Assembly: GCA_907163375.1 (NCBI GenBank)
Contig: CAJQUW010010362.1
Coordinates: forward strand, 1-64,000
Direction of reading: 5' to 3'
Source: Prostheceraeus crozeri
Taxonomy: Eukaryota; Platyhelminthes; Polycladida; Euryleptidae
DNA: 64,000 bases
Made by a program: the position numbers and the translations under genes. Every line of letters starts with the position of its first letter. Within the stretch, counting starts at the first letter, position 1. The notes below the pieces were generated by a model. That model was not told the origin of the DNA and ran no database searches. It saw only the letters and a list, made by a program, of their open reading frames with translations. Positions 29,006 through 64,000 of this stretch are shown in pieces.

Positions 29006-29031
29006 CTTATCAGAGCGAAGCTCCTCTGGCT

Positions 29032-30365: not shown

Positions 30366-30419
30366 TTTTATAAAAAATAATTTGACTTTTTGTTTTTTCT
30401 CACAGACAGAAAAAAATTT

Positions 30420-30490
30420 TACTAAAATAATTTTGCTAAAATAATTTTGCTAAAAAAATTTTACTAAAAAAATTTTACTAAAAAATATAT
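30420..30490. repeat. Short tandem repeat aattttactaaaa
   Basis: About five copies of a 13-17-bp A/T repeat in the gap between the major capsid gene and the next gene. Confidence 0.7.
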
Positions 30491-30491
30491 T

Positions 30492-31052: not shown

Positions 31053-31095
31053 TATTTAGGATTAAATTTGACTTTTGGGAAAAATATCTACGTTC

Positions 31096-31122
31096 GGCTA
31101 AAGCCTTGAGGAGCTTCGCTCC
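31096..31122. repeat. Double hairpin ggctaaagcc / ggagcttcgctcc
   Basis: An intergenic copy of the palindrome family; nearly the same pair occurs in the polymerase gene at 35058-35083. Confidence 0.8.
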
Positions 31123-31151
31123 GATAGGTTAGAAACCCAAGACTTCGTCGA

Positions 31152-32039: not shown

Positions 32040-32147
32040 TTTTAAAACAATAAAAAAGTAAAACTTTTTTTTTTATAAAAATAATAAAAATAAAATTTTT
32101 TCTAATAAAAATAAAAAAATAAAATTTTTCCTAATAAAAATAAAAAA
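32040..32147. promoter_or_regulatory. Divergent promoter region
   Basis: About 108 bp of A/T-only sequence separate the leftward virion block from the rightward block. It contains three copies of taaaaataaaaaaat-like sequence. Both flanking ATGs follow A-rich leaders. No TATA box can be singled out in such sequence. Confidence 0.5.
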
Positions 32148-33425: not shown

Positions 33426-33596
33426 TAAGATAAAACTTAATATGATAAAACTTAATGTGATAAAGAAAAAAAATAACTAAAGAACGTGAAATATATAATA
33501 ATATAAAATAACACTCAAGTCCTAAATATTAGAATGTTTATATCTAAAATTAAAACACAAATTTTTCCTTAAATTTTCTCTAAAAAAATAAAAAAA

Positions 33597-38233: not shown

Positions 38234-38315
38234 TTTTCTAATTTCTAAGATAGACAAATTTGATATATATATAAAATAAAAAAAAATATTGTAACACTAT
38301 ATTTGTATATTTTTA
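38234..38315. terminator. AT-rich gap between convergent genes
   Basis: The polymerase and ATPase genes converge here. The sequence is nearly pure A/T; ataaaataaaaaaa at about 38270 could serve as a poly(A) signal region. Confidence 0.3.
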
Positions 38316-39082
38316 TCACTCCGCGAAAATATTTTCGATAACTCTTTCATGAATTTTTTTATCAATATTAATTGTAATGAAGCCATAATCTTTTGACCAA
38401 GCATTATTACACGATTGTTTAAATTCATCTTTATTTCTTACGCATAAATCTCTTAACAAATCACTTAAGTTTCTTGCATTTATTTCAAATAGTATAAATA
38501 TATTTGCATTCTTTCTAATAACACTTCCGTCTAATGAATACATACTTTGTGTTAAATAAAATACACTACAGTTATTATGTCTACCTCTTGTGAAATAATT
38601 TCTCTGAACTGACTGATTTCTATCATTAACACAATCATCAAAAATTACACAATGTTTCATTGTTTTATCTAGTTTACTAGGATCTTGCATATTACCACTA
38701 TCATCTATTAATTGTATCTTTATATGGTTATTTTTATTAGATTCTACTAACTGATTATTTTTTGCTGCTTCTTCACACCACGAACTTATTTCTTCTTCAT
38801 CTTCAGATTTTTCATATTCTTTGAATAATGAAGCAATTGCTGTTTTTTTAAGATTATTTTCAAATCCATATTTTAAAAATTGATAGACGGGTTGTTCTGC
38901 CGTTGTTGTATAAATTATAAGATTGTTATAATCCAAAAAATTTGGAGTCGTTAAAATTTTAAACAATAGATACGTTTTTCCACAACCTGATCTTCCACAA
39001 ATAACTGACAAAACTTTATTAGATAAATTTGGATGATGATTAAATTTAAGTTTTTTTTATTTAATGGAGGTAGTTCACTCAT
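38316..39082 (-). CDS. Packaging ATPase (FtsK/A32-like), frameshifted
   Basis: The 231-codon open part (from 39011) has Walker A CGRSGCGKT, Walker B KHCVIFDDC and the downstream motif NNCSVFYLTQS, typical of the genome-packaging ATPase of Polintons and poxvirus A32. The open part lacks an ATG. A better start is the ATG at 39082 (MSELPPLNKK), whose frame joins the main frame if one A is added to the run of eight A on the coding strand (39051-39058). So the gene is complete except for a probable one-base deletion. It pumps the genome into the capsid. Confidence 0.9.
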
Positions 39083-39168
39083 TTTTTAATAAAAAAATTT
39101 ATTTTTATTTTATTTTTGTTTTTAAAGAAGAAGAACAAAATTAAACTTCTCTAGCTTCGCGTGGGAGT

Positions 39169-39957
39169 TTATACCTCTCGAACCAAAAGATCTATCATAA
39201 TCTCTTCACCTCCAAAATTTATTTCTTGTCCTTTTTCATCAGTGATTCTAATGCCAATGTTGTTAATAGTTTTTCTTGTAATAGGAAAATATATTAATGT
39301 TTGTGGAATTACATTTAATCTATAACCAATGGGTACAGTAAAAGCTGGAAAACTGAATATTAAATTTGATAATTTACCATTTATATATCCTCCTTCAATA
39401 ATGTCACAATGTACAACAATTGAATTTATTTCAGTTATTTTTGGAATCTTCTCACCTAAATGATAACCTTGACTATAGGTTTGTTTATTAAATCCTAATA
39501 GCTTTGACAATGATCTATCATGATTAAAATCAACTTGATGATTTTCGTCTAAAGTAAGAGAAAATTTATTAACTGCCGGTTCAACTGCAAAATGTAATTG
39601 TTTCTTATCTTTAAATGATATACCTAAATGTCTCTTAATTTCATTTGATATTGATTCAACTTCGTAAGAACCAGGAAGAAAAGTTAATATTTTCCACGTT
39701 TTGCCTTTATCAGTAGAATATCTAAATTGATCATTCACATCTTTGATAACGTTTTGAATAGTGTTAAATGTAGAGAAACTAGTCAATGCAATTTGATAAT
39801 TTTTATTTTGTTCCAAATGTAGAATGGGTTCTAAATTACAAGTGTGTGATGAAGTAGTTGTTATAATTTTTAACGTCGTACTAAATTTTGATGAACCCAA
39901 AATCTCTGTCAAATTTTCTAAATGATTATTAATTTTGTCTAAATCTGCTGAACACAT
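39169..39957 (-). CDS. Minor capsid (penton) protein, single jelly roll
   Basis: The 262-aa protein has the layout of the Polinton penton homologue (PX): NYQIALTSFSTFNTIQNV, PGSYEVESISNEIKRHL, then SKLLGF, a DIIEGGYINGKLS segment and a C-terminal INFGGEEIMIDLLV. The LTxFxTxNxIxNV and PGxYxxxxI patterns are recurrent in this family. It forms the capsid vertices. ATG at 39957 is preceded by an A-rich leader. It lies between the ATPase and the next unknown gene, as is common in Polintons. Confidence 0.8.
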   Translation of the reverse strand: MCSADLDKINNHLENLTEILGSSKFSTTLKIITTTSSHTCNLEPILHLEQNKNYQIALTSFSTFNTIQNVIKDVNDQFRYSTDKGKTWKILTFLPGSYEVESISNEIKRHLGISFKDKKQLHFAVEPAVNKFSLTLDENHQVDFNHDRSLSKLLGFNKQTYSQGYHLGEKIPKITEINSIVVHCDIIEGGYINGKLSNLIFSFPAFTVPIGYRLNVIPQTLIYFPITRKTINNIGIRITDEKGQEINFGGEEIMIDLLVREV

Positions 39958-40023
39958 TTTTTAGTTAAAATTTTAAATAAATATTTTTTTTAAAAAAAAT
40001 TAGAAACAACATATTTCAGCTAC

Positions 40024-40055
40024 GGGCGAAGCCCTGGAGGACATCAGAGATGTCC
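40024..40055. repeat. Double hairpin at a gene's stop codon
   Basis: gggcgaagccc (40024-40034) and ggacatcagagatgtcc (40039-40055); the stop of the leftward gene at 40044 lies inside the second palindrome. Confidence 0.85.
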
Positions 40056-40865
40056 AGTTACACTTTTATAATCCTCTTCATTTAGAATCTTCTTTTCTAA
40101 CAGTCTTTTCAATATAGCATGAATTTCATTGAAACTAGAATTATGTCCTTCTTTTATTGCAGATATTAAAATATTTAATCTATTTAGTAATTCTTGTGGA
40201 TCATCTGGTAAAAATACAGTTGTTTCAGTTTTCTGTTTTTCAGATAAACCTTTCCCTACTTTAACTCCCGTTGATAATAAATTTTCTAATTGTTTATAAC
40301 GTCTAAGAGATTTTACTGCACCAACTCTGTCTAACATAGCTTTATATTTTATGAGATCTTCTACAGCATAATTATTTAAATCTGCTCCTCTTAAAAGATT
40401 AACAAAATTTCTATCTAAATTAAAAGGAGATTTATCTGGTGAAAAAATTATACCTCGAAAAGTTTGTGGAAATATTTCTTTTTGTCCGAGATAAAATCTA
40501 GGTATTGTTTTTCCATCTATAAATGAAATAGAATGTTCAAATTGCATAGATTTTGGTAATTTCTTATTAATGTTTGATTCTAGTAATCCATAGTCATCTA
40601 ATATAGTTTTGTGCTCTGGATCTGTTATATCAATTTGTTTATCATTATTTGTACTTTCTTTTTCAAGAGTTTTAAATGGTTTCATAGTTTTCTCAAAATC
40701 AGTTTTTACTTGCTCGGTTTGCTGCATTTGTTCAAACATATCAGATTGAATACCAGCTTTTATCATTCTATGTTGAAGATGATTTTCTTTCATAATATTT
40801 CTTTGTTTTATTAACTCTTCTAATTGTTTTATTCTTTTAAAATTATCAGCTTTAATTTTATCCAT
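40044..40865 (-). CDS. Conserved Polinton protein, unknown function
   Basis: The frame extends to 40931 but the likely start is the ATG at 40865 (MDKIKADNFKRIKQLEEL), preceded by aaaa as in neighbouring genes, giving 273 aa. The N-terminal third is a coiled coil, followed by LDDYGLLESNINKKLP, GKTIPRFYLG and LRRYKQLENLLSTG. Proteins with this LLxDY...LRRYxxLxxLL layout recur next to the penton gene in Polintons; no function is established that I can name. The C-terminus (SVTGHL) is encoded by the hairpin at 40039-40055, so the original end may have been different. Confidence 0.6.
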   Translation of the reverse strand: MDKIKADNFKRIKQLEELIKQRNIMKENHLQHRMIKAGIQSDMFEQMQQTEQVKTDFEKTMKPFKTLEKESTNNDKQIDITDPEHKTILDDYGLLESNINKKLPKSMQFEHSISFIDGKTIPRFYLGQKEIFPQTFRGIIFSPDKSPFNLDRNFVNLLRGADLNNYAVEDLIKYKAMLDRVGAVKSLRRYKQLENLLSTGVKVGKGLSEKQKTETTVFLPDDPQELLNRLNILISAIKEGHNSSFNEIHAILKRLLEKKILNEEDYKSVTGHL

Positions 40866-40971
40866 TTTTAAAATATAATATTTGAATTTTGTGGTAACAT
40901 TGGAATACAGCAAAAACATTTTACTGAACAAATTATTTTTTTATTGCTTTGTTGTTTGACATCTTTTCGCT

Positions 40972-41652
40972 TTAAGTTTTGTTTAATAAAGTTTTGCTTA
41001 AATTTTCGCTTAAAGTTTTTAGCTCTTCTAAAAAAATTTTGTCATTTTCTTCATTAGAAATTTTGCCATCACTGGAAATTTTGCCATCCTTTTTATTTTT
41101 ATCATCAACTTTTTCTGTCTGTGATTGAAATGATATTTGATTTACTTCATTAGCTATTTGATCAAATTTTTCAATCTCATCTAACGTAATAACATTATCA
41201 TCACATACTCTTTGAAAGTAGTAATGTAGTTTATCATAGACTTCTTTAATATGTAAATGCTTAGTTTTTAATGATTTTCGTTTCTTAGTTATTAAAGATT
41301 TATCTAACATTGTAACAAGTGAAGTTGCAAAAACACCCGTACCTGTTAAAGCTGTAGCAACTACTGGAATTACTAAAACACCTGAAGATATAACAATTGT
41401 TAAAGCACTTAAACTTATTGTTAAGAATATGCCAATTCCTTGTGTTACATTCTTAACTTTAGTCCATCTCTTTCTTAATTTTTTATAATGCTCTAATCTT
41501 AATAATAATTGAGATTCCTTATCTTTCATATAGCGTACTCTATCTTTGTGTTTTTCAATGTTCATTTTTTCAATGTTAATCTTTTCAATATCCATTAAAG
41601 TAGAACTACGTTCATATGATAACGAAGGATATATTCTTGCAGTTTCTTCCAT
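40972..41652 (-). CDS. Conserved Polinton membrane protein
   Basis: This 226-aa protein has a basic coiled coil (KESQLLLRLEHYKKLRKRW), a hydrophobic region of about 45 residues at 70-115 (GIGIFLTISLSALTIVI then GVLVIPVVATALTG) that can form two membrane helices, a Lys-rich KKRKSLKTKHLHIK, and a second helical region with an acidic tail. Similar proteins with RWxKVxNxxxxxG followed by a hydrophobic pair accompany Polintons in other invertebrates, with unknown role; virion entry or membrane remodelling is a guess. An N-terminal remnant of it lies at the left end (26133). Confidence 0.6.
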   Translation of the reverse strand: MEETARIYPSLSYERSSTLMDIEKINIEKMNIEKHKDRVRYMKDKESQLLLRLEHYKKLRKRWTKVKNVTQGIGIFLTISLSALTIVISSGVLVIPVVATALTGTGVFATSLVTMLDKSLITKKRKSLKTKHLHIKEVYDKLHYYFQRVCDDNVITLDEIEKFDQIANEVNQISFQSQTEKVDDKNKKDGKISSDGKISNEENDKIFLEELKTLSENLSKTLLNKT

Positions 41653-41828
41653 TTTTTAAAGAAATATTTTGAATAAATATTTTGAAAACAATCTTCTGAA
41701 ATGCTATTTAAATCGAAATACGTAGTTGTTTGTTTGTCGTATATTTCTAAGAACTCAGTCATGTTATTAACCTGAGGTAATATATCACCTATATTACTCA
41801 GTATAACTGTCGGATTTTCATCATTCAT
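41595..41828 (-). pseudogene. Remnant of a second protease N-terminus
   Basis: From ATG 41828 the frame contains MTEFLEIYDKQTTTYFDLNS, closely matching MNNINEFLKLYGTQTTTNFD of the protease at the other end of the element. After that it diverges and runs, out of frame, over the start of the 226-aa gene. No catalytic residues are present. It is best read as a decayed copy of the protease 5' end. Confidence 0.65.
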
Positions 41829-41849
41829 TTTAAATGAAATAAATTCCAA

Positions 41850-42265
41850 TAACTGTAATAATGTCTACTTCTTGTACAGGAAAATGAAAACAACGGCAGT
41901 GTATTTTGCATCAAATATAATAATACAACAATCAATCTTATCACACAATTGTACAATGTCAGTCTACTATCAGTAGACTGGAGAACAAAAGGAAATTTAA
42001 TTACATTTCAAAATAATCCAAAATGCGTTACTACTAAGTTCCATGAATCATTCTTAAATATCAAAGATTATGTTACATACTGAAATATAGATCTATACAA
42101 TAGCAGTCTCATGGTAGTAGACTGGAGAACAAAAGGAAATTTAATTACATTTCAAAATAATCCAAAATGTGTTACTACTTATAAATAAGTCTTCATAAAT
42201 ATGTATACATCAAATATGCATGTACATTGCACATATCTTAAAAAGTGAAACAACACAGTTAATGT
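41850..42265. repeat. Intergenic with 64-bp direct repeat
   Basis: No gene. A 64-bp unit beginning agtagactggagaacaaaag occurs at 41972-42035 and 42116-42179 with a single mismatch, each preceded by a short palindromic tctactatcagtagac-like sequence. Confidence 0.85.
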
Positions 42266-42871
42266 TCATTCATCTTGGGAACCAAACCTCATTTCTTCTA
42301 TAGCTGTCGGTTGATTCAATTTTTCTATATAAATTTTGATTTCTTTAAAATGTTTTCTAACAAAACTAATGGGCATTGATGAATTTAAAAATAATACGTG
42401 TGGTAGAATTAGATCTGATAAGTTCATCAAGAAATAACAATAACTTACGTTATAGGAAATTCTAAATAGTTCCAAGTTTACCACAAATCTGTTTTTTTTA
42501 TTGTCACTCAATTCCAGAATTCTTTTAAATCCATAACCTTGATAAGCAGCACTTCTCAGCAACGACCCATGGTGCACTTTATCACTTGCAATCAGTTTTG
42601 AAATCATAGTAGCACTATCTTCGATGGTAATGAAATGTTCTTTTGTAACATTGAACTGAGGAATTGTAGTAGTGTTAAGATACTGTTCTATTTTTACTGT
42701 AATATCCTCCACTTGTTTTTGAGAGTCCAATTTGTTCTTCTTTCTCGATTGAATTTCTAACTTCCACTCTTCAAAGTATTTATTCGCAGTTTCCTTGTGC
42801 TCTTCTTTAATTAAGTTTAGTAAAATCGGCATGTAAAACGAAAAAGCTTCTGCGGCAGTACGTTTTGGCAT
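42266..42871 (-). CDS. Unknown gene near right Polinton end
   Basis: The frame reaches 42898, but the ATG at 42871 (MPKRTAAEAFSFYMPILLNL) is a better start, giving 201 aa. The protein is mixed helical with KVHHGSLLRSAAYQGYGFKR and a hydrophobic C-terminal part (YCYFLMNLSDLILPHVLFL). I do not recognise the family. It is leftward like its neighbours, less AT-rich than the core genes, and carries no hairpin, so it may be a recently acquired accessory gene. Confidence 0.5.
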   Translation of the reverse strand: MPKRTAAEAFSFYMPILLNLIKEEHKETANKYFEEWKLEIQSRKKNKLDSQKQVEDITVKIEQYLNTTTIPQFNVTKEHFITIEDSATMISKLIASDKVHHGSLLRSAAYQGYGFKRILELSDNKKNRFVVNLELFRISYNVSYCYFLMNLSDLILPHVLFLNSSMPISFVRKHFKEIKIYIEKLNQPTAIEEMRFGSQDE

Positions 42872-43169
42872 TTTGCAATAAGGAAAGAAAACAGTCACTA
42901 GTTATGATTAATGGAATTGTAAATGAAGTCTTACTTCCTACATGCTGCAATTATATGCCACGTCTTTACAAATGAATAAGTGGGTGTAGCAGCTGTCTGT
43001 TCTTTCATACATTGTTTCCTTTCAAATGTTTGAGTTGGAGGTCACAGCTCTTTACACTGAAATGCCTTTTATTCATAAATGCGAGAAGCAGATGTTCTCT
43101 ACAATTGAGTGAACATCTGAGTGCAAAGCAGTAACAATAACAGGCATTGCGAGAGATTGTGTTACATTC

Positions 43170-51346: not shown

Positions 51347-51742
51347 GGCAGCGCAACAAATCCGAATTGTGTATGAAACCTATTTGAGAAATACTATTGA
51401 AATACAAGAGAATCACGATTCACGACACGAATTGTTGCCTTTTAATCCTATTTACTCGTGGGATAATAGAACATCATTCGAATTTGTTGCGCTGCCCGGT
51501 TTGCTGCTACTGACGATGAAATCCTTTGCCATCAATTTCAATTCTAGGAACTTTTGATGACATTCCTCGATAAATACTGCAATGCCTACTATCTGCTCGA
51601 AAGTCGCCACGAGGAGTACACAAATCTACTCGAAGATGACGAGTTCGAGGAAGAGGAGAAATTTATCGAGGAATGTCATCAAAAGTTCCTAGAATTGAAA
51701 TTGATGGCAAAGGATTTCATCGTCAGTAGCAGCAAACCGAAG
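51347..51742. repeat. Nested foldbacks at the BEL/Pao 5' edge
   Basis: Two inverted repeats lie here. gggcagcgcaacaaatccg (51347-51366) is matched in reverse at about 51481-51500. A longer arm, 51501-51583, is the reverse complement of 51661-51742, part of the gag coding sequence, with a spacer of about 78 bp. The antisense 62-codon frame at 51369 is a product of this. Confidence 0.85.
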
Positions 51743-54058
51743 GAAGGTGATACCGAAATAACCGCGAAATCATCTGCAGCAACTGGTTCATCGAAGATGG
51801 AGACACCAAGCAGTGACCTTAAATCCGAATCTGACGACCATTCGGAACAGGTGAGCAAGTCAGTGATGCAATCTGTCCCCACTTACAGTAAAATGGAGGT
51901 TTCGAAACCTAGTTTACCCTCTCTCTCTGGTGACGTGCGTGAATTCTTTGAATTTAGGTCAGATTTTAAACACCTTGTCGAGAGTCATGTCTGTAAGCGA
52001 GATGCTGTGACTATGTTGAGGTCTTGCCTTCTTGGCAAACCGCTAGATATGGTGAGGGGTCTAGGTCAAGACTATGATACTATGTGGGACACTTTAGAGA
52101 CTGCGTATGGGAATCCAAGGTTCATCTCTGACGCGATTACTAATGACATAGTCAAATTCAAACCATTATCTGAAGGAGAAGACTCTCGTTTTTGTGATTT
52201 AGCCCAGCTTGTCAGAAGGTGTTTTAACTTACTCAAGGAAATTGGTAGAACAGAAGATATGGACAATAATTACGTCATTGCTCTTTTGGAGCAGAGAATG
52301 ACTAGCGAAGATAAAAAGATTTGGTCGAGACATTTAGAACATGAGAGAAAAGAGCCTACTTTATCAAATCTTCTCGAATGGATGAGCGTAGAGATGAGAT
52401 TGCGTCTCAGGGCAGTGTCTGCTGTAAGGTCTACCGCTCGTCCTTCAAAGCCTCAAGTCAACCAAGTTGTTTTGAATAGCCATGCAGAGAAAAGTCATAA
52501 ATGTTGGATATGTAATACTAACTCACATGTCATAGCTCAATGCCCTACTTTCATCAACAATTCTGTTAAAGAAAGATACGAGTTATTGAAGGAAAACAGA
52601 TGTTGTTTCAGTTGTTTGAAGAAAGCGGGAAGAAGTCATCGCGCCCATACTTGCTACCATAAACAGGAATGCTCTGAGATACGAAACGGTGTGACCTGTA
52701 AGAAGTATCACCATAAATTATTGCACTCAGATCCTGTCAACTCTGTCGGGATGGCATCGACTCAGAGCCGCAACAACCTTTTACCTGTAGCAACTCTCGA
52801 GATTAAAGGGAAAGAAACTCGCAGCAAGTCCTGCAATATTATGTTGGATTCAGGCGCGCAAGTGTCACTGATAAGAAACGCGGTAGCTCAAGAATTAAAT
52901 CTGTCAGGAAATAATGTCAGCATATCTATACTGAAAGTAGGCGGCGCAGAAGAAGAAATAGTATCAAGGGTGTACGAATTATCAGTTGTTTCCCCTAGAA
53001 GCGGTCATAACTATCTCGTCAAGGTAATTGGAATTGATGAAATTAATGACACCTATACGCAGATGATCGACACCGATTGTTTGAGTCGTGAGTTAGGAAT
53101 CAAAGGAACTGTTCTTCCCAGGTGTTCTGGCGTCATTGATGTTTTGATAGGGATAGATCATGAGAAATTGCACTGTGGAGAGTCAGTTGAACTGAATAAT
53201 TTGGTTGGTAGAAATACTCCAATGGGATGGATATTTTTCGGAGGATCGAGTGAAAGCAAAGGTCAGCACTCCCTCATGTATGTCTCCCTCTCTAAACCTG
53301 TTGAGATAACCGACTTCTGGACTACGGAAGGTATGGGAGTCTCGTCTCCAAATTGCCGGTGCTCCCAGAATGAGCAAGACCAGGTGAATAGTACAGAAAT
53401 GAACAATTTATGTAGTAAGACACATAATCAGTGGACAATGGAGTATCCTTGGATAAAGAATCCTGAGCTCCTTCCAGACAATAGAGTTCAAGCTGAGAGA
53501 TTACTCCACGTCAGAGAAAAACAACTACAGAAGTCACCCGCTCTAGCAAATTCCTACGATGAGCAAATAAAGGAAATGGTTAGCTTGAAGTTCGCCAGAA
53601 AGCTAACAGCAGATGAAGTTGAAACCTACGAGGGGCCTCATTTGCCTCATCATGGTGTGCTGAAGGAGAGCAAAAGCACCCCTATAAGATTGGTGTTCAA
53701 TTCATCTATCACATTTAACGGTCATTCTCTAAACGATTATTGGGAGAAAGGCCCCGACCTGTTCAATGATTTGCTTGGGGTTCCGCTGAGGTTTAGAGAG
53801 AATAGTGTCGCACTGGTAGGTGATATATCAAAAATGTACCACAGAATCCGATTAACAGTGAAAGATCAGCATGTGCATAGATTCTTATGGCGAAATATGA
53901 ACCTCCAGAAAGTGCCCGATACGTATGTCATGAATGTACTTACATTCGGCGATAAACCTGCGCCTGCCATGGCAATGACAGCTTTGAGAAAAACAGCTGA
54001 TGAAAGACAAGGTGACCTACCTGAAGCAGCCAATACAATTCGTCTGAGTAGTAAGTAA
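51554..54058 (+). pseudogene. BEL/Pao gag-pol, truncated inside RT
   Basis: The 834-codon frame has a gag-like region (DUF1759 type, residues about 115-290), a zinc knuckle C317-X2-C320-X4-H325-X4-C330 (CWICNTNSHVIAQC), more Cys/His-rich sequence to about 385, an aspartic protease with LDSGAQVSLI at 431-440, and the start of a BEL/Pao reverse transcriptase (TPIRLVFNSS, VGDISKMYHRIRL, LTFGDKPAPAMAMTAL). It stops at 54058 before the YxDD motif, so the rest of RT, RNase H and integrase are missing. The first ~10 codons lie in an inverted-repeat arm, so the true gag start is lost. No LTRs are identifiable. It is a dead fragment, though one intact frame suggests it is young. Confidence 0.88.
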
Positions 54059-54351
54059 AACTCCACTTCTGGACCGCGCAAGATGGCCGCCGTCGCTGAC
54101 GTCCCCGCCCCCCTCTGGAACGGCAGAGTGTCGTGGTCGGCCGCCGTGGTGCTTTGAGTCAGACGTCCCTCCCCCTCTGGAACGACAGAGTGTCGTGGTG
54201 TGCCGGCCACGTGCGTCCGTCAGGTTCGCTGACGTCCCCCCCCTCTGGCCGACCGTCGTATAGCGCGCGGTGATGTGGTGTCTAGGTTGGCGTGGTGTGC
54301 CGGCCAGGTTGGCGTGGTGTGCCGGCCAGGTTGGGAGGGTGGACTGTCGTA
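54059..54351. other. GC-rich sequence with local duplications
   Basis: Words such as ctctggaacggcagagtgtc and gcgtggtgtgccggccaggt are repeated two or three times. No gene is seen. Confidence 0.6.
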
Positions 54352-55195
54352 GCTCACCTGAAAAAATCCTGTGTCAGAGTGGCTTTGTATGGGTAAAATT
54401 TTGAAAATTTTCCAAAGTGTGGAATTTTGACCTGGGACCGTCACCAAAACATTTTTCATCAAATTTCACTGACCCCCCCCCCCCGACAGCAATCTTCTAA
54501 CTTTGGTTCTAGTGAACGGATTTTGTCTTACAGCTACTCGTTTGAAAGAGGAGAAAAAACTGCTCGACCCCATTTTTGCCGCGAGTCAATCGGACCAGCC
54601 GTTCAAAAGTTAGAGCTGTTACAAGATTTTAGGTCGGAGCTCGCTCACCTGAAAAAATCCTAAGTGTCAGAGTGGCTTTGTATGGGTAAAATTTTGAAAA
54701 TTTTCCAAAGTGTGGAATTTCGACCTGGGACCGTCACCAAAACATTTTTCATCAAATTTCACGGACCTCCCCCCCTCTGGACAGCTCGCTTCGATCTTGG
54801 CTTCTAGTGGACGGATTTTGTCGTGCAATAGCTCGTTTGAAAGCTAAGAGTGAGACAAATTCAGTGAAAGAAACGGCTTGTTCATATCTGTCTTCGTTCA
54901 AAAGTTAGAGCTGTTACAAGATTTTAGGTCGGAGCTCACCTGAAAAAATTCTAAGTGTCAGAGTGGCTTTGTATGGGTAAAATTTTGAAAATTTTTCAAA
55001 GTGTGGAATTTCGACATGGGACCTTTACCAAAACATTTTTTATCAAATTTCTCTGAACGAGGGGGGGAGGGGGGTCCGTGAAATTTGATGAAAAATGTTT
55101 TGGGTAAAGGTCCCAGGTCGAAATTCGGAAGTTTTAAATTTTTCAAAATTTTCACCACACTGGAGCTCTCACACTTAGGAATTTTTTCACTTGTG
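54352..55195. repeat. 291-bp tandem repeat with inverted last copy
   Basis: Units begin gctcacctgaaaaaatc at 54352, 54643 and 54934 (period 291). The third is cut at about 55062 and followed by a partial copy in reverse orientation (about 55066-55195), so the array ends in a foldback around a C/G run. Confidence 0.9.
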
Positions 55196-55361: not shown

Positions 55362-55400
55362 TATATATAAACCCCCGACAACGTAAGTCTGATCACTTCA
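55362..55400 (+). promoter_or_regulatory. TATA box and initiator, gene 1
   Basis: tatatataaa at about 55362-55371 lies ~30 bp before gatcacttc (55391-55399), an initiator-like site. A short first exon would then end at GAG|GTAAGC (55412/55413). Confidence 0.6.
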
Positions 55401-55412: not shown

Positions 55413-56188
55413 GTAAGCGACGGTCGTCGCTCTGAGCTCCCGATATCGGGTGTTTCAAAGGACTCTATCTTTTGAAGTAGGCAAGCATAGTTTTAATATG
55501 TAGACTAAGGTTTTCAAGTATGCTGAGTTCAAATCTGCTATCAGATTTGAAATTTAACTCAGTCAAAGGCAGCTTTGAGGGGTTAGATCCCAGCTACTGA
55601 TCACTACTTTTGACTCGGCGTTCCTGTTACCACTTCGGGGCAGTGACAATGATGTCTTCAGCTGTAAAGAGCGGGTATCGGGGAAGATCTCTCACTTCCC
55701 TAGTGATCAGTACAAGGCCTTCGGGCTGTCGACGGGATCGAGTGCCACTCACTACACTCAAATCTATCATTCCTCACTAAGTGTTGATATTATGTTGAAT
55801 GTTGACTAAGTTGAATGTTGAATGTTGAATAAGTGTTGAATGATAACATTATGTTTTAGGCCGTATGCTACATTCAAATCTGCTATCAGATTTGAAATTT
55901 AACTCAGTCTAAGGCAGCTTTGAGGGGTTAGATCCCAGCTACTGATCACTACCTTTGACTCGGCGTTGCTGTTACCACTTTGGGTCAGTGACAATGATGT
56001 CTTCAGCTGTAAAGAGCGGGTATCGGGGAAGATCTCTCACTTCCCTAGTGATCAGTACAAGGTCTTCAGGCTGTCGACGGGATCGAGTGCCACTCACTAC
56101 ACTCAAATCTATCATTCCTCACTAAGTGTTATGCTTTAGTCTGTATACTACATGATTCCAAACTTATACAAATTTCATTATCTTACAG
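55413..56188 (+). other. Predicted 5' UTR intron of gene 1
   Basis: The donor AG|GTAAGC at 55413 and the acceptor tatcttacag ending at 56188 frame a 776-bp intron. Exon 2 would begin at 56189, 20 nt before the ATG. The intron contains the two 258-bp repeats. Confidence 0.5.
55528..56130 (+). repeat. Two 258-bp repeats, possible structured RNA
   Basis: Copies at 55528-55785 and 55873-56130 have equal length and a few differences. Each can form an AAATCTG/CAGATTT hairpin at its start, then nested pairings: GATCCC with GGGATC (55586-55591 and 55734-55739 in copy one) enclosing TACTGATCACTA with TAGTGATCAGTA (55595-55606 and 55701-55712). A small GCC-TTCG-GGC hairpin becomes GTC-TTCA-GGC in copy two, still pairable. 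The spacer is rich in ttgaatgttg repeats. Confidence 0.7.
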
Positions 56189-56208: not shown

Positions 56209-57438
56209 ATGGTCAACAATGACAAAAATAAGAAGTTCCACATTAAAATGTGTGTATGCGGCCGAATTAGCCGCCGAGACGGTCTCAAGGACCACATCAA
56301 GAAGGCAGGGGCCGACCACATGGTTATCCTGAGTAGGGTTGCCTGTGTGAAGTGCAGGGTGCTGTTGGTTGCTGTTGGTGCTGTTGGGCAGGAGGCCGAG
56401 TTTTATTTGAGGCATGGTGAGTGCACAGGAGGGTTGGTGACCGATTTGAGATTTGTGGAGTTGATGAATGCTGAGAAGGAGCGAATGTTGGGGAAAGAGG
56501 CCAAGAATGTTGTTGAGAATGCTAGTGGGAATGTTGTTGAGAATGCTAGTGGGAATGTTGTTGAGAATGCTAGTGGGAATGCTGTGGAGAATGAGGTAGA
56601 GAATGCTGTGGCCGGTTTGAAGGCTGACAAGTGGCGGAAGAGAGTGTTTGAGAGTGATGAGGATGATGTGGATTTGGATAGGGAGCGAGTGAGGAAGCGT
56701 GTGAGGAAGTTGAGCTCTTCGTCGTCGGAGGTATCCGATATTGTCATTACCGACCCCCCGCAGAGCTCATCTTCCCCAATAGTGAAGGGTGGTGGGGTAC
56801 GGAAGCAGTCGGCGCGGTGGGATGAGGACATGGAAAAGAAGCATGTGTCGCAGCAAGCGGCACATGCTTTGTTGGTTGATCGGTACGAAAGTTTGAAGGT
56901 GAATGAGAGAACGTTGAGTGAGTTGAGTGAGCTGAAAATGAAGGTGAAATGTAAAGAGGTGGCAGATGAAAATATCCGTATGAGGCGTGTTGTGAAAGAG
57001 TTGAAGGAGAATGTGCGAGTGTTGGAAGACAAGAATGATGAGCGAGAGAAGAGGACGAGTGCTGCAGAGAGGAGAATGGGAGAGGCAGAGTCGAAGTATG
57101 AGGAGTTGATGAAGGAGATGAGTGTATTGAGAGCGAGGAATGCTGAGTTGGAGAGGAGTGTGAGTAGGCAGGGTGATGAGAGAGAGTCGTTTGCGAAGTT
57201 AGAGCGCATGAGGAATGAGTGGAATCGTGTGAATGAGGACAGAATGTTTGAGTTCCGCATCCCTATTCGGGATAACCATCTGGACGGTCAAGTCCTCGTC
57301 AACCAAAGCCTAGACGAGAGTATAATCTGCTATAATGGTCATCCGACTAAGAAGTGCTTACATGCCACACTCAGAATGCGCGGCCATTTACAAAAATTTT
57401 CAGCCAGGAAGCCCGCGAGACTGCCTAAGGATGACTAA
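56209..57438 (+). CDS. Gene 1: zinc-finger and coiled-coil protein
   Basis: The frame is open from 56152 but the ATG at 56209 is in a near-ideal context (gcagccatgg) and lies just after the predicted acceptor, giving 409 aa. The N-terminus has a Cys/His-rich module (CVCGRISRRDGLKDHIKKAG ... H ... ACVKC) resembling a C2H2-type finger. A 24-bp repeat (56506-56577) encodes three NVVENASG units, followed by acidic and Arg-rich stretches with a Ser run (a likely nuclear localisation region), then a coiled coil of about 130 residues and a C-terminal basic tail (KFSARKPARLPKDD). I do not recognise the family. A nuclear, nucleic-acid-binding role is suggested only by composition. A 60-bp intron follows the stop. 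Confidence 0.65.
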   Translation: MVNNDKNKKFHIKMCVCGRISRRDGLKDHIKKAGADHMVILSRVACVKCRVLLVAVGAVGQEAEFYLRHGECTGGLVTDLRFVELMNAEKERMLGKEAKNVVENASGNVVENASGNVVENASGNAVENEVENAVAGLKADKWRKRVFESDEDDVDLDRERVRKRVRKLSSSSSEVSDIVITDPPQSSSSPIVKGGGVRKQSARWDEDMEKKHVSQQAAHALLVDRYESLKVNERTLSELSELKMKVKCKEVADENIRMRRVVKELKENVRVLEDKNDEREKRTSAAERRMGEAESKYEELMKEMSVLRARNAELERSVSRQGDERESFAKLERMRNEWNRVNEDRMFEFRIPIRDNHLDGQVLVNQSLDESIICYNGHPTKKCLHATLRMRGHLQKFSARKPARLPKDD

Positions 57439-57442
57439 CTTG

Positions 57443-57502
57443 GTAAGTGAAAAGCAAATAAGATAGTATATCCTATTCTAATACATATCATCTTCATTGC
57501 AG
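57443..57502 (+). other. Predicted 60-bp intron in gene 1 3' UTR
   Basis: G|GTAAGTG at 57443 and tcttcattgcag ending at 57502 are strong splice sites. The intron starts 5 nt after the stop codon. Confidence 0.5.
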
Positions 57503-57533
57503 ATCTTTGCCTGCCTTCACCACCCCATCAATT

Positions 57534-57680
57534 CACTCCCGAGAACGAACCATCGGCTCTCTTAAGGGCCATCTAGGGGCAAGACATGATAGAACCTCCA
57601 CGCGGTTTGCCCTGGGCAGTCTTCGGACTGGCGAATACTATCATTAAGTTGAATCTGCTATCAGTCAACTTGAACGTTGC
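57534..57680 (+). ncRNA. Histone-type hairpin + HDV-like ribozyme, copy 1
   Basis: The conserved block starts near 57536. The hairpin ggctctcttaagggcc (57555-57570) fits the histone 3' consensus GGYYYUHHUHARRRCC. Five bases later begins an HDV-like ribozyme, 57576-57644: P1 GGGGCAA (57576-57582) with TTGCCCT (57607-57613, giving the typical G1-U wobble); P2 ATGATAG (57586-57592) with CTATCAT (57638-57644); P3 ACC with GGT around loop TCCACGC; P1.1 GG next; P4 CAGTC-TTCG-GACTG (57617-57630); J4/2 GGCGAAT with the likely catalytic C at 57632. All elements of the nested double pseudoknot are present. The cut should fall between 57575 and 57576. A hairpin AAGTTGA/TCAACTT follows (57646-57671). 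Confidence 0.85.
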
Positions 57681-57695
57681 GTCGCGTTAGAGGGG

Positions 57696-57734
57696 TATAT
57701 AAACCACTGCCTCTCATTTCATTTCATTTCAATC
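57696..57734 (+). promoter_or_regulatory. TATA box and short leader, gene 2
   Basis: tatataaa at 57696-57703, then a pyrimidine-rich ctctcatttcatttcatttc before the ATG at 57735. Expected initiation about 30 bp after the TATA box leaves a leader of only about 10 nt. Confidence 0.65.
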
Positions 57735-58001
57735 ATGCAGACGCCGAACAGTCAAGTCAGCTCTCCTCGCGGACCGCAGTTAAGGCCGCGAAATTTATTT
57801 GAGGAGTTTGTCAGGCTAGAGGAGCAAGACAGAGTTTATAATAATCTTGCTCGGATTGGCAATCCGATGACAGCAACTGCTGTCAATCCAACGGAATGGC
57901 GCTACATTCCACTTTTTAGCCATGTACCAGTTAGTGTGGAAGTCGACAGTGCTACCAAAGAGAGAGTCAAAGACTCTCTCAGCAGAATTGGTAGGGTGTA
58001 A
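57735..58001 (+). CDS. Gene 2: unknown 88-aa protein
   Basis: The intronless frame encodes a small protein with a basic/proline-rich start (SSPRGPQLRPRNLFEEF), a charged helix (VRLEEQDRVYNNLARIG) and a second one at the end (ATKERVKDSLSRIG). The two ends both finish in a L-RIG motif. It is not related to any family I recognise. It has a TATA box about 39 bp upstream of the ATG, and its stop lies 50 nt before the predicted cut of ribozyme copy 2, with no AATAAA between. Flanking architecture shared with gene 3 argues that it is a real gene. Confidence 0.6.
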   Translation: MQTPNSQVSSPRGPQLRPRNLFEEFVRLEEQDRVYNNLARIGNPMTATAVNPTEWRYIPLFSHVPVSVEVDSATKERVKDSLSRIGRV

Positions 58002-58009
58002 GATGACGT

Positions 58010-58156
58010 TACTCCCGAGAACGAACCACCGGCTCTCTTAAGGGCCACCATGGGGCAAGATTTGATAGAACCTCCTCGCGGTTTGCCCTGGGCAGTCTTC
58101 GGACTGGCGAATACTATCATTAAGTTGAATCTGCTATCAGTCAACTTGAACGTTAT
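58010..58156 (+). ncRNA. Histone-type hairpin + HDV-like ribozyme, copy 2
   Basis: The hairpin (58031-58046) and the 69-nt ribozyme (58052-58120) match copy 1. Differences: P2 5' strand is TTGATAG (one pair lost), and L3 is TCCTCGC, the sequence found in genomic HDV. The likely catalytic C is 58108 and the predicted cut is 58051/58052, after ACCAT. The following hairpin is at 58122-58147. Confidence 0.85.
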
Positions 58157-58219
58157 GCAGTCGATTGCTATCCCTGAAGCATTCTGATTCGCTGTTGAGC
58201 AATTCATTGTTGAAAACCC

Positions 58220-58267
58220 TATATAAGCCAGAAGATTGTAGCGCTTCTCATTCAATTTCAAGTCACG
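58220..58267 (+). promoter_or_regulatory. TATA box and leader, gene 3
   Basis: tatataag at 58220-58227, then ttctcattcaatttc before the ATG at 58268. The TATA, the ctcatt(c/t) initiator-like word and the spacing resemble gene 2. Confidence 0.65.
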
Positions 58268-58522
58268 ATGGAATCGACATCTGCCAACAGCATTCCCGTC
58301 TTCATCGATGAAGACAACGCCATTCCCGAGTTCGTCATCCTCGACGAGTGGGATGAAGAGGATGATAAGAAGGGGAAGATCAAGAGGATCGTTTGGATGG
58401 ATGGGGTGTGGACTCCGAATACCACTCGCATCCGAAAGGTGCCAGATGCACCAGCACGAGCTAGGCGGTATATGGTCTATGACAACCTAACCGTCATACC
58501 CATTGACTATTCCAGCCAATAG
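58268..58522 (+). CDS. Gene 3: unknown acidic 84-aa protein
   Basis: The frame encodes an acidic N-terminal half (IDEDNAIPEFVILDEWDEED) followed by a basic patch (DKKGKIKRIVW) and WMDGVWTPNTTRIRKVPDAP, ending in a hydrophobic VYDNLTVIPIDY. It is not homologous in sequence to gene 2 as far as I can see, nor to any family I know. The stop is followed 55 nt later by the predicted cut of ribozyme copy 3. As with gene 2, no poly(A) signal lies between. A small secreted or structural role cannot be inferred; there is no signal peptide. Confidence 0.6.
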   Translation: MESTSANSIPVFIDEDNAIPEFVILDEWDEEDDKKGKIKRIVWMDGVWTPNTTRIRKVPDAPARARRYMVYDNLTVIPIDYSSQ

Positions 58523-58535
58523 TCAACTTAAATTC

Positions 58536-58684
58536 ACACCCCGAGAACGAACCATCGGCTCTCTTAAGGGCCACCATGGGGCAAGACATGATAAAACCTC
58601 CACGCGGTTTGCCCTGGGCAGTCTTCGGACTGGCGAATACTATCATTAAGTTGAATCTGCTATCAGTCAACTTGAACGTTGCAA
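58536..58684 (+). ncRNA. Histone-type hairpin + HDV-like ribozyme, copy 3
   Basis: The hairpin (58557-58572) and ribozyme (58578-58646) match copy 1. P2 5' strand is ATGATAA, losing one pair. L3 is TCCACGC, the likely catalytic C is 58634 and the predicted cut is 58577/58578, after ACCAT. The following hairpin is at 58648-58673. No fourth ORF with this architecture is seen downstream. Confidence 0.85.
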
Positions 58685-59075
58685 ATGAAGTTCGGTGTAA
58701 TACTTCCTTTCGACGGGCGTTCCTGTAAAGGGCGGCGGTGAAACCCGTAGCTATGTATACCGCAAGGGACATTCGGCAATGGTCAATCTTGTTAAACCTC
58801 TCTGCGTCATGTTTGCAAGTGATTGCCTCTGTCTCAACGTAGTATACATTCGCGTCAGGGCGACATTTAGCCAACTGTCGAAGGTTGCCTAAAACTTTCC
58901 ATTGCATACGTTATGAGAACCATGAGTTCTACCTGTCTCTATCAATGAGACGAATTGATGAATGGGATGAAATGGGAGGACACTCACGCGCCACACACAA
59001 CATAACACACCTCTCTCTTCCGTAGTCGAACAAGCTCTTTACACATGGATCGCAGTCGATTGCTATCCCTGTATC
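58685..59075. other. End of the ribozyme locus
   Basis: No rightward gene is seen. gcagtcgattgctatccctg occurs here (about 59049) and also at about 58157 just after ribozyme copy 2, so this may be the decayed start of another unit. A leftward 137-codon frame crosses ribozyme copy 3 and is probably spurious. Confidence 0.4.
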
Positions 59076-62000
59076 ATGTAAGCTATCTAAATTTTATTTA
59101 ACACTATTTCATCTACCATTTCAAGAGTTTACAAGTTAGAAATAAAGTTTCAATAGTGTATGCGTTAGAAATAAAGTTTTAGCTGTTTGTATATCAAAAT
59201 AAAGTTTCAAGAGTTTACAAGTTAGAAATAAAGTTCCAATAGTGTATATGTTAGAAATAAAGGTGTAACTGTTTTTAAAAATAAGATCGCAAGATTTACT
59301 AGTTTACAAGTTAGACTAAGTGTAAATTAAAAATAAAATTATAACTGTTCACGAGTTAAAGCGTTGATGCAACGATGAACAATTAATAAGCTGAAAAGTT
59401 TTAGATTCACTTTAACATTACCATATGTTTACAGATAGAAATGTATCACAGCAAAGCTACTTCATGAGTTAGTTTGCCAGGAGTGTATCATCTCAAACTT
59501 TTACTCCGACTGTGGAACATTGATTTCCATGATGAAGATTTAAATAGTTAGATTCGATGACAAACAAGATTTACTAGTTTACAAGTTGGACAAAGCGTTC
59601 TACTATTTGTAAATGAAAGATATCATTTCAACAGTTTACCAGTTAGAAATAAAGTTTCAATAGTGTGTATGTTAAGAATAAACTTTTATCTGTTTATATG
59701 TTAGAAATAAAAATGAAGGTTCACCAGTTTACAAGTTAAGAATAAAGTTTTATCTGCTTGTATGTCAGAAATGAAATAAAGTTTCACCAGTTTAAGAGTT
59801 AAAAATAAAGTTTCAATAGTTTGCAAGTTAAAACTAATGTTTCAATAGTGCATATGTTAAGAATAAAGTTTTATCTGTTTGTATGTTAGAAATAGAAAGA
59901 AGTTTCACCAGTTGGCAAGTTAAGAATAAAGTTTTATCTGTTTGTATGATAGAAATAAAACAAAGTTTCAACCGCTTATAAGTTAAAAATAAAGTTTCAA
60001 TAGTTTACAAGTTAAGAATAAAGTTTCAATAGTGTGTATGCTAAGAATAAAGTTCTATCTTTTTATATGTTAGAAATAGAATGAAGTTTCACCAGTTTAC
60101 AAGTTAAGAAAAAAATTCTATCTGTTTGTATGTTAGAAATAAAGTTCTATCTGTTTATATGTTAGAAATAGAATGAAGTTTCACCAGTTTACAAATTAAG
60201 AATAAAGTTCTATCTGTTTGTATGTTAGAAAAAAAACAAAGTTTCAACCGTTTACAAGTTGAAAATAAAGTTTCAATAGCTTACAAGTTAAGAATAAAGT
60301 TTCAATAGTGTGCATGTTCAGAATAAAGTTCTATCTGTTTATATGTTAGAAATAGAATGAAGTTTCACCAGTTTACAAGTTAAGAATAAAGTCTATCTGT
60401 TTATATGTAAGAAATAAAATGAAATTTCATCAGTTTACAAGTTAAGAATAAAATTGTATCTGTTTGTATGTTAGAAATAAAACAAAGTTTTAACCGTTAA
60501 CAAGTTAAAAATAAAGTTTCAATAGTTTGCAAGTTAAAACTAATGTTTCACCAGTTGGCAAGTTAAGAATAAAGTTTTATCTGTTTGTATGTTAGAAATA
60601 GAATGAAGTTTCAACCGTTTACAGGTTAAAAATAAAGTTTCAATAGTTTACAAGTTAAGAATAAAGTTTCAATAGTGTGCATGTTCAGAATAAAGATCTA
60701 TCTGTTTATATGTTAGAAATAGAATGAAGTTTCACCAGTTTACAAGTTAAGAATAAAGTTCTATCTGTTTATATGTTAGAAATAAAATGAAGTTTCATCA
60801 GTTTACAAGTTAAGAATAAAGTTTTATCTTTTTGTATGTTAGAAATAAAACAAAGTTTCAACCGTTAACAAGTTAAAAATAAAGTTTCAATAGTTTGCAA
60901 GTTAAAACTAATGTTTCAATAGTGTGTATGTTAAGAAAAAAGTTTTATCTGTTTGTATGTTGTTTGCTTCACCAGTTTACAAGTTAAGAATAAAGCTTCA
61001 ATAGTGTGCATGTTCAGAATAAAATTCTATCTGTTTATATGTTAGAAATAGAATGAAGTTTCACCAGTTTACAAGTTAAGAATAAAGTTCTATCTGTTTG
61101 TATGTTAGAAATGAAACAAAGTTTCAACCGTTTACAAGTTAAAAATAAAGTTTCAATAGTTTACAAGTTAAGAATAAAGTTTCAATAGTGTGCATGTTCA
61201 GAATAAAGTTTTATCTGTTTGTATGTTAGAAATAGAATGAAGTTTCACCAGTTGGCAAAATAAGAATAAAGTTCTATCTGTTTGTATGTTAGAAATAAAA
61301 CAAAGTTTCAACCGTTAACAAGTTGAAAATAAAGTTCTATCTGTTTATATGTTAGAAATAGAATGAAGTTTCACCAGTTTACAAGTTAAGAATAAAGTTC
61401 TATCTGTTTATATGTTAGAAATAGAATGAAGTTTCATCAGTTTACAAGTTAAGAAAAAAGTTTTATCAGTTTGTATGTTAGAAATAAAACAAAGTTTCAA
61501 CCGTTAACAAGTTTAAAATAAAGTTTCAATAGTTTGCAAGTTAAAACTAATGTTTCAATAGTGCGTATCTTAAGAATAAAGTTTTATCTTTTTGTATGTT
61601 AGAAATAAAACAAAGTTTCAACCGTTAACAAGTTAAAAATAAAGTTTCAATAGTTTGCAAGTTAAAACTAATGTTTCAATAGTGCGTATGTTAAGAATAA
61701 AGTTTTATCAGCTTGTATGTTAGAAATAAAATTAAGTTTCACCAGTTTACAAATTAAAAGTAAAGTTTCAATAGTGTGTACGTTAGAAATAAAGTTTGAA
61801 GCGTTTACAAGTTAAAAATAAAGTTTCAATAGTTTGTATGTTAAGAATAAAGTTTTATCTGTTTGTAAAGTACGATCGTAGGATTTACTAGTTTGCAAGT
61901 TAGACTCAGCATTCTACTAGTTGTAAATGAAAAATATCGTTTCAACAGTTTACAGATTAGAATAAAGTTTCAATAGTGTCCACGTTAGAAATAAAGTTAT

Positions 62001-62582
62001 GACTGTTTGTATGTGTGTGTGTGTTAGAAATAAAGTTTCAACCGTTTACAAGTTAAAAACAAAGTTTTAACAGTGTGTATGTTAGAAATAAAGTTTTATC
62101 TGTTTATATGTTAGAAACAAAACAAAGTTTCAACAGTTTACAAGCTGAAAAATGAAGTTTCAACGGTTTGTACGTTAGGAATAAAGTTTTAACTGCTTGT
62201 ATGTTAGAAATAGAGGTATGACAGTTTATATGCTAGAAAGAAAGGTATAACTGTTTGTAAGACAAGATCGTAAGATTTACTAGTTTGCAAGTTAGACTCA
62301 GCGTTCTACTAGTTGTAAATGAAAAAATATCGTTTCAACAGTTTACAGATTAAAATAAAGTTTCAATAGTGTGTATGATGGAAATGAAGTTTAAGCGCTT
62401 TGTGCGTTAGAAATAAAGTTTCAGCCGTTTACAAGTTAAAAATAAAGTTTTAACAGTGTGTACGTTAGAAATAAAGTTTTAGCTGTTTATATGTTAGAAA
62501 CAAAGTAAAGTTTCAACAGTTTACAAGTTGAAAAATAAAATTTCAACAGTGTGTACGTTAGAAATAAATGAAAGTAAGAACT
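59076..62582 (+). repeat. AT-rich satellite, forward arm
   Basis: Imperfect units of about 28-38 bp of the form agaaataaagtttcaacagtt / tacaagtt and variants (ctatctgtttgtatgtt, aatagtgtgtatgtt) repeat throughout, with higher-order patterns several hundred bp long. No genes. Confidence 0.95.
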
Positions 62583-62692
62583 TCATCTAATGAGTATTCA
62601 AAGCATGTTTTGTAAATCAAATGTGTGTCGTACTGACATGATAGAATCAAATCAACTTGACAAACGCGTTTCTTCCTTTCATTACTTACTTC
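62583..62692. other. 110-bp unique spacer at palindrome centre
   Basis: Nonrepetitive DNA between the two satellite arms. Confidence 0.85.
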
Positions 62693-64000
62693 AGTTCTTA
62701 CTTTCATTTATTTCTAACGTACACATTGTTGAAACTTTATTTTTCAACTTGTAAACTGCTGAAACTTTATTTTGTTTCTAACATATAAACAGCTAAAACT
62801 TTATTTCTAACGTACACACTGTTAAAACTTTATTTTTAACTTGTAAACGGTTGAAACTTTATTTCTAACGCACAAACCGCTTAAACTTTATTTCCATCAT
62901 ACACACTATTGAAACTTTATTTTAATCTGTAAACTTTTGAAACGATATTTTTTGATTTACAACTAGTAGAACGCTGAGTCTAACTTGCAAACTAGTAAAT
63001 CTTACGATCTTGTCTTACAAACAGTTATACCTTTCTTTCTAGCATATAAACTGTCATACCTCTATTTCTAACATACAAGCAGTTAAAACTTTATTCCTAA
63101 CGTACAAACCGTTGAAACTTTATTTTTCAGCTTGTAAACTGTTGAAACTTTGTTTTGATTCTAACATATAAACAAATAAAACTTTATTTCTAACATACAC
63201 ACTGATAAAACTTTATTTTTAACTTGTAAACGGTTGAAACTTTATTTTTAACACACACACACACATACAAACAGTCATAACTTTATTTCTAACGTGGACA
63301 CTATTGAAACTTTATTCTAATCTGTAAACTGTTGAAACGATATTTTTCATTTACAAGTAGTAGAATGCTGAGTCTAACTTGCAAACTAGTAAATCCTACG
63401 ATCGTACTTTACAAACAGATAAAACTTTATTCTTAACATACACACTATTGAAACTTTATTTTTAACTTGTAAACGGTTGAAACTTTGTTTCTAACGTACA
63501 CATTATTGAAACTTTATTTTTAATTTGTAAACTGGTGAAACTTAATTTTATTTCTAACATACAAGCTGATAAAACTTTATTCTTAACTTGTAAACTGGTG
63601 AAGCTTCATTTTATTTCTAACATACAAACAGATAAAACTTTATTCTTAACATACGCACCATTGAAACATTAGTTTTAACTTGCAAACTATTGAAACTTTA
63701 TTTTTAACTTGTTAACGGTTGAAACTTTGTTTTATTTCTAACATACAAACAGATAAAACTTTATTCTATTTCTACCATATAAACAGATAGAACTTTATTC
63801 TTAACATATACACTATTGGAACTTTATTCTTAACTTGTAAACGGTTGAAACTTTGTTTTATTTCTAACATACAAACAGAAAGAACTTTATTCTTAACTTG
63901 CCAACTGGTGAAACTTCATTCTATTTCTAACATACAAACAGATAAAACTTTATTCTTAACAAGCACACTATTGAAACTTTATTCTTAACTTGTAAACTAT
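62693..64000 (-). repeat. AT-rich satellite, inverted arm
   Basis: From 62693 to the window end the sequence is the reverse complement of about 61275-62582 in the same order of variant units, with a few percent differences. The arm continues beyond the window. Confidence 0.93.

Follow-up and report, generated by a model that had tools for sequence, protein, structure and literature searches.

What might predicted self-cleaving ribozymes do at the ends of the genes of a mobile DNA element? The question is raised by a 64,000-nt stretch of the genome of the polyclad flatworm Prostheceraeus crozeri (contig CAJQUW010010362.1 of assembly GCA_907163375.1, positions 1 to 64,000; hereafter the window). 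In the window, an element whose left end lies at 54047 carries three motifs resembling the ribozyme of hepatitis delta virus (HDV), each 5 nt past a hairpin of the type found at the 3' ends of histone mRNAs. An earlier reading of the letters alone (the sequence-only reading) had proposed three HDV-like ribozymes in a row at this place; it overlooked that a hairpin stands 5 nt ahead of every ribozyme, how many copies exist and what element surrounds them. The main finding beyond it is a natural module, predicted from sequence, in which a histone-type hairpin is joined to a ribozyme; this copy of the element has three such modules, the genome about 14,000. We propose, with a probability of roughly 0.6, that the three units serve a DNA mobile element as 3'-end modules, which would give its mRNAs ribozyme-made, histone-like ends without poly(A).

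Three predicted HDV-like ribozymes in direct repeats

The three ribozymes, all on the plus strand and 69 nt long as had been claimed, occupy 57576..57644, 58052..58120 and 58578..58646, with G1 at 57576, 58052 and 58578. Parsing with our own descriptor found the full helix set in all three. P1 is GGGGCAA/TTGCCCT in every copy, 7 bp including a G1-U wobble. P3 is ACC/GGT, closed by a 7-nt L3 (TCCACGC, TCCTCGC and TCCACGC in copies 1, 2 and 3); P1.1 is supplied by GGG; P4 is CAGTC-TTCG-GACTG; and J4/2 is GCGAATA, placing the expected catalytic C at 57632, 58108 and 58634. The wobble, the 3-bp P3, the L3 letters, P1.1, the TTCG-capped P4 and the catalytic C of the sequence-only reading were thereby all recovered, and its remark that copies 2 and 3 had lost one P2 pair was correct, P2 being 7, 6 and 6 bp long in copies 1 to 3. 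P1, P1.1, P2, P3 and P4 stand in the correct order for the nested double pseudoknot of the HDV-like fold. The double pseudoknot, the G1-U pair, an L3 of TCCTCGC or TCCACGC, the GG of P1.1 and the GGCGAA joining strand are shared with HDV and the R2-type HDV-like ribozymes.

Covariance models placed the motifs in the same register. In a 2.4-kb search, the Rfam model HDV-F-prausnitzii (RF02682) gave 26.8-28.5 bits (E 0.011-0.027) and HDV_ribozyme (RF00094) gave 24.8-28.1 bits (E 0.2-0.85). A strict descriptor matched three times on the plus strand of the window and not at all on the minus strand, with 1 match in 100 dinucleotide shuffles (both strands). A looser descriptor added two chance-like matches on the minus strand, at 54706 and 33021. 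The 24-letter core pattern had exactly three exact matches, and none in 100 shuffles even when up to 3 mismatches were allowed. These results support the identification of the three window motifs as HDV-like ribozymes, for which self-cleavage is predicted.

Each ribozyme lies within a 143-nt direct repeat (57538-57680, 58014-58156 and 58540-58682; the second is 94% and the third 97% like the first). From 5' to 3' the repeat contains a hairpin, GGCTCT-CTTA-AGGGCC, then 5 nt, the 69-nt ribozyme and a further hairpin. The further hairpins (57644..57673, 58120..58149 and 58646..58675, plus strand) are conserved and contain the core CTGCTATCAG; folding of copy 2 gave a z-score of -3.21, and the other two were assigned from sequence as its homologues.

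Histone-type hairpins and the predicted 3' ends

The hairpins that precede the ribozymes, at 57555..57570, 58031..58046 and 58557..58572 on the plus strand, have a 6-bp stem of the GGCYCU/AGRGCC type and a 4-nt loop. The Rfam model Histone3 matched all three at 17.0-18.8 bits (E 0.08-0.41, 2.4-kb search), and the second was also supported by folding. Between hairpin and G1 lie the spacers ATCTA (57571..57575), ACCAT (58047..58051) and ACCAT (58573..58577), so the predicted ribozyme cut would leave the hairpin plus these 5 nt. Each hairpin-ribozyme module sits 3' of an open reading frame (ORF) on the same strand (genes 1, 2 and 3).

The stem of 6 bp and the loop of 4 nt are features in common with the histone mRNA ends made by the stem-loop-binding protein (SLBP) and the U7 small nuclear ribonucleoprotein (snRNP), and the predicted end, 5 nt past the stem, would be another. 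The histone consensus after the stem is ACCCA, whereas the element has mostly ACCAT or ACCTA. The vertebrate histone loop is of the UUUC type, and a C at the first loop position is unusual there. As described in the sources, U7 snRNP cleaves histone pre-mRNA 4-5 nt 3' of the stem (PMC7026596), and the histone mRNAs of C. elegans end 3-6 nt past the hairpin, after A or U (PMC1924863). The C. elegans loop is given as CTTT, with CTTA in four H2B genes (PMC1924863), and the histone loops of bdelloid rotifers are likewise CTTT (PMC2642717). These C-first loops suggest that a first-position C is natural in animals beyond the vertebrates.

On the plus strand neither AATAAA nor ATTAAA occurs from 57401 to 59140; AATAAA first appears at 59141, some 560 nt past the start of ribozyme 3.

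Copy number and conservation in the host genome

In the host assembly, which is the window's own (2.05 Gb, 14,165 contigs), a 37-nt ribozyme core matched 14,758 times when up to 3 mismatches were allowed, and a 26-nt pattern spanning hairpin, junction and P1 had 14,194 matches, with no match to either reversed control. A DNA search of the same genome with the whole unit returned nothing, which, given the 14,758 pattern matches, reflects the skipping of common words. We collected 71 distinct units from 52 host-genome loci and the window. Sixty are full length, and 35 sequences are distinct. Among the 60 full units the stem GGCTCT/AGGGCC is intact in 59 and the loop is CTTA in 59, while the distance from hairpin to G1 is 5 nt in every one. 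The spacer reads ACCAT in 40, ACCTA in 17 and otherwise in 3. P1 is perfect in 58 of the 60, and GGG and the J4/2 C are kept throughout. Because every locus was chosen for an exact core match within it or close by, this sample is biased to intact cores; the hairpin and spacer were not directly selected. The sequence-only reading had named genome-wide conservation of P1, P1.1 and J4/2 as a test, and the thousands of near-exact core copies together with these counts bear it out. In 10 loci, all 18 ribozymes counted had the hairpin directly 5' and, upstream on the same strand, an ORF 70 aa long or longer; this count omits further ribozymes recovered by BLAST in those loci.

The remaining 11 units are partial: six are cut at locus ends, and five are a diverged first copy (L043, L047, L057, L058 and L059) that lacks the hairpin and is altered in P3, P1 or P4. 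The copies are too alike for covariation to be used. Compensatory P3 changes appeared at first in L057 and L059 and did not persist on strict column alignment.

Such likeness among copies, and the loss of the hairpin with changes to P3 or P1 in the five diverged ones, would be expected if the ribozymes were dead and conserved only because the transposon or satellite carrying them had spread recently. We consider this very improbable. Pairing and catalytic positions are intact in the window save for the one P2 pair in each of copies 2 and 3, and amino-acid changes in gene 2, the ORF preceding the second module, fall below expectation. Compared with the window copy, 32 copies of gene 2 showed 138 non-synonymous or stop changes against 91 synonymous ones, a ratio (N/S) of 1.52 where 2.96 is expected; one copy was frameshifted and two had stop changes. 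For gene 3 the counts were 87 and 37 (N/S 2.35, expected 3.22; 17 copies, 2 frameshifted). Gapped copies were excluded from these counts, and a change common to several copies was counted each time. Both genes are open in most copies. Among ten copies of gene 1, the ungapped ones showed no difference from the window copy.

Genes and promoters around the modules

All features in this section are on the plus strand. Gene 1 has a TATA box at 55362..55372, followed by a first intron predicted from its splice sites (55413..56188, GTAAGCG...TTACAG). Inside this intron are two copies of a 268-nt structured repeat, at 55518..55785 (fold z -2.63) and 55863..56130, which share the hairpin core noted above with the post-ribozyme hairpins and had no convincing RNA-family match in Rfam. 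The gene itself (56209..57438) encodes a coiled-coil-like protein; its ORF is open from 56152 and a homologue begins at Met 56209. A 60-nt intron is predicted from sequence in its 3' untranslated region (57443..57502). Gene 2, an ORF of 88 aa at 57735..58001, and gene 3, an acidic ORF of 84 aa at 58268..58522, are preceded by TATA boxes at 57696..57702 and 58220..58226, in agreement with the earlier description of these small ORFs as TATA-driven. None of the three genes had a convincing match to a Pfam family. Gene 3 has three homologues of 83-85 aa that are 84-87% identical; gene 1 has two, 92% and 60% identical, among the best 8,000 candidates scored, and no relatives in the viral contigs searched with it.

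This arrangement bears on the known role of HDV-like ribozymes in R2-type retrotransposons, where the ribozyme is described at the 5' end of the element (PMC3774820). By analogy, the ribozymes could process read-through or polycistronic transcripts to free element RNA, their nearness to gene ends being incidental. The conserved hairpin after each ribozyme is in keeping with this, and yet we regard the explanation as quite unlikely. The ribozymes lie 3' of several DNA-element genes and behind a histone-type hairpin, 3.5 kb inside the left end at 54047, which upholds the contrast with R2-type 5' ends drawn by the sequence-only reading; a TATA box of its own precedes each following gene; and the polymerase found, described below, is a DNA polymerase. 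Reverse transcriptase was not seen in the element proteins scanned, which comprise part of the ORFs in the left half of the element.

A predicted ribozyme-made mRNA 3' end

What is read from the sequence comprises the motifs, their order, spacing, strand and copy number, the absence of AATAAA and ATTAAA as far as 59140, the open ORFs and the SLBP-domain exons described below. From these we infer that the TATA boxes are used, that the ribozymes cut, that no tail is added, that SLBP binds and that expression is coupled to S phase. RNA polymerase II would initiate at a TATA box and read the short gene, the histone-type stem-loop and the HDV-like ribozyme, which would cut the nascent RNA 5 nt past the stem-loop. 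The resulting mRNA would end in the stem-loop plus ACCAT or ACCTA and would lack a poly(A) tail. Host SLBP would then bind and protect it and promote its translation as for histone mRNA, and expression would track S phase, with neither U7 snRNP nor a poly(A) signal. More broadly, we think it somewhat better than an even bet that this is a natural third route to animal mRNA 3' ends, in which HDV-like ribozymes cut 5 nt past a histone-type hairpin and a selfish DNA element uses the host SLBP pathway without poly(A) machinery or U7 snRNP, with several such ends per element and thousands per genome. Such ends would differ from those of histone mRNAs in that U7 snRNP acts there and a ribozyme in cis here, and in that the genes of the element are not histones.

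A laboratory reporter offers a precedent. In HEK (human embryonic kidney) cells, an HDV ribozyme by itself is reported to have reduced the level of an unspliced non-polyadenylated transcript, and a histone stem-loop placed before the ribozyme to have restored it (PMC4456446). The reporter matches the module in its two parts and in their order; it is man-made and was used in human cells, whereas the module described here is natural and present in thousands of copies.

The host genome contains two exon-like matches to the SLBP RNA-binding domain, both on contig C10478, which score 52.7 and 32.9 bits against a cut-off of 27 and one of which has an internal stop; none of 14 control genomes had a match over the cut-off. 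Host histone H4 gave 151 matches, many partial or with stops, which suggests many H4 pseudogene copies; the six best are on C3379, C3797 and C9657. A stricter hairpin pattern matched 39 places, 29 of them one-letter variants of the element hairpin, and a looser one matched 276. The commonest sequence among the 100 of these 276 listed was a second repeated histone-type hairpin, GGCTCTTTTAAGAGCCAC, whose inner 16 letters occur at 196 places in the genome against 1 for the control. In several cases its copies stand in tandem 468-478 bp apart (for example C1841:83461/83930, C2406:48823/49294 and C4032:33018/33496), resembling the 476-bp gene-2 unit. It may represent an older subfamily of the same element, with a U-A replacing a U-G pair.

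A different account keeps the ribozyme as the maker of the 3' end and has the hairpin not as an SLBP target but as a generic or element-protein-binding structure that blocks 3' exonucleases. The loop CTTA differs from the vertebrate type, no host histone hairpin was matched to the element hairpin with the patterns tried, and the products of genes 1-3 have no assigned function, all of which would fit. Against this, GGCTCT-CTTA-AGGGCC followed by ACC matches histone 3' ends in sequence and spacing, the second repeated hairpin recurs in the host genome, and the CTTA loop is also described in C. elegans H2B genes (PMC1924863). On balance we hold this account to be unlikely.

Several observations weigh against a ribozyme-made, SLBP-dependent end. 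No ribozyme copy reaches the Rfam gathering scores (44 for RF02682, 50 for RF00094), which are database thresholds and no defining part of the HDV fold; the HDV-like naming stands on the agreement of sequence and covariance-model register. None of the three hairpins reaches the Histone3 gathering score of 34. SLBP of the vertebrate type favours U at loop position 1. HDV-type cleavage generates ends with a 2',3'-cyclic phosphate. For the histone mRNAs of C. elegans, by contrast, a 3' OH is described (PMC1924863). The HEK reporter's stem-loop and ribozyme end is described as giving no splicing support (PMC4456446), and gene 1 has two predicted introns. Between 57401 and 59140 there are rarer variants of the poly(A) signal, namely AATACA at 57480, TATAAA at 57698, which is the TATA box, and, within ribozyme 3, GATAAA at 58590. 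Finally, none of the six best H4 places shares a contig with any of the 39 places of the stricter pattern or with any of the 100 of 276 places listed for the looser one, a list that reaches C4901, with C9657 beyond it.

The surrounding mobile element

The left end of the element (AGTAGTAAGTAAAACTCCACTTCTGG..., 54047..54075, plus strand) falls within a BEL/Pao-type ORF. Of 12 upstream loci, 11 share the sharp left end AGTAGTAAG and the other, L074, differs from it by one letter; the DNA 5' of this end varies between loci. The interrupted retrotransposon ORF spans 51557-54058, with DUF1759 and weak aspartyl protease matches. Upstream of the first promoter are tandem subrepeats of about 290 bp (54350..55060, plus strand, limits approximate). 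After the third module comes a conserved non-coding tail (58690..59110, plus strand) that is 95.8-98.1% alike in other matching element loci; its part from 58690 to 58800 has no stable fold (z +0.81).

Past the tail, some copies, including that in the window, run into AT-rich arrays and others into a minus-strand ORF. The array of the window (59119..64000), which runs off its end, stands where other copies go on toward the polymerase gene. In L055 an AATAAA overlaps the stop of the minus-strand ORF, which would leave the poly(A) pathway open to another gene of the element. Beyond this ORF, L055 and L056 have a TATA box and then a protein of 1289 aa (P0009; L055:5037-8906) that carries DNA-polymerase-B motifs together with an endonuclease-VII domain and a C2H2 finger. 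The PF03175 profile did not match P0009. The family of P0009 comprises 682 proteins at E <=1e-5 among 6,306 candidates, and the best 120 of the 682 match mostly endonuclease VII and some DNA_pol_B_2 (PF03175). No name for this family came up in the literature searched.

Adjacency of polymerase and element was read directly at one place (contig C82, both arms; L055/L056). Ten other places match the 1,737 nt 5' of the polymerase to position 1,429 or further, L040 at 82% and some with internal deletions; L030, L031 and L034 match up to the polymerase start or one base short. The assignment of the polymerase to the element thus rests on one direct adjacency and the shared leading 1,737 nt.

At least 11 contigs, judged by eye among the 100 core places listed, have oppositely oriented copies about 10-20 kb apart. 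Five inverted pairs chosen for alignment (C82, C91, C125, C205 and C33; L053-L062) are 88-99.6% alike over 4.4-8.8 kb; they stand head-to-head, 11-15 kb apart, and reach 99.6% over 7.5 kb. These may be inverted dimers or assembly artefacts. The hairpin-ribozyme unit is independent of this question, since direct copies without a listed inverted partner also occur.

The polymerase alignment found no relatives in the viral contigs searched, a search of prokaryote genomes gave one distant contig from a metagenome-assembled genome (L075), and phage records gave no match by megablast. The ribozyme pattern picked out 22 viral contigs; the loose descriptor gave only chance-like matches in 8 of them, none at the matched place.

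Like the Polintons or Mavericks, it is a DNA element of large size that has a gene for a family-B DNA polymerase. It differs in that its polymerase bears an endonuclease-VII domain and in that neither an integrase nor a capsid gene was seen in its left half, the part that was read. A separate Polinton/Maverick lies at 26834-42898 of the window, with an integrase, a double jelly-roll capsid-like protein, DNA_pol_B_2 and a zinc finger. Elsewhere in the window, at 547-8970, one strand is nearly all G and T for about 8.4 kb, and the GC fraction drops from about 0.63 to 0.33.

Implications for mRNA 3'-end formation in animals

The literature matches listed, whose coverage takes in few subscription papers and no bioRxiv preprints, include no natural histone-type hairpin before a ribozyme, only the laboratory construct. 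Replication-dependent histone mRNAs are described as the sole known non-polyadenylated mRNAs of metazoans (PMC10388802; PMC6303110). If the reading of the modules as ribozyme-made 3' ends is true, the transcripts of this element would form a second class of non-polyadenylated metazoan mRNA, and self-cleaving RNA would have a part in nature in making the 3' ends of mRNAs. The same reading would point to a way for a DNA element to couple its expression to S phase.

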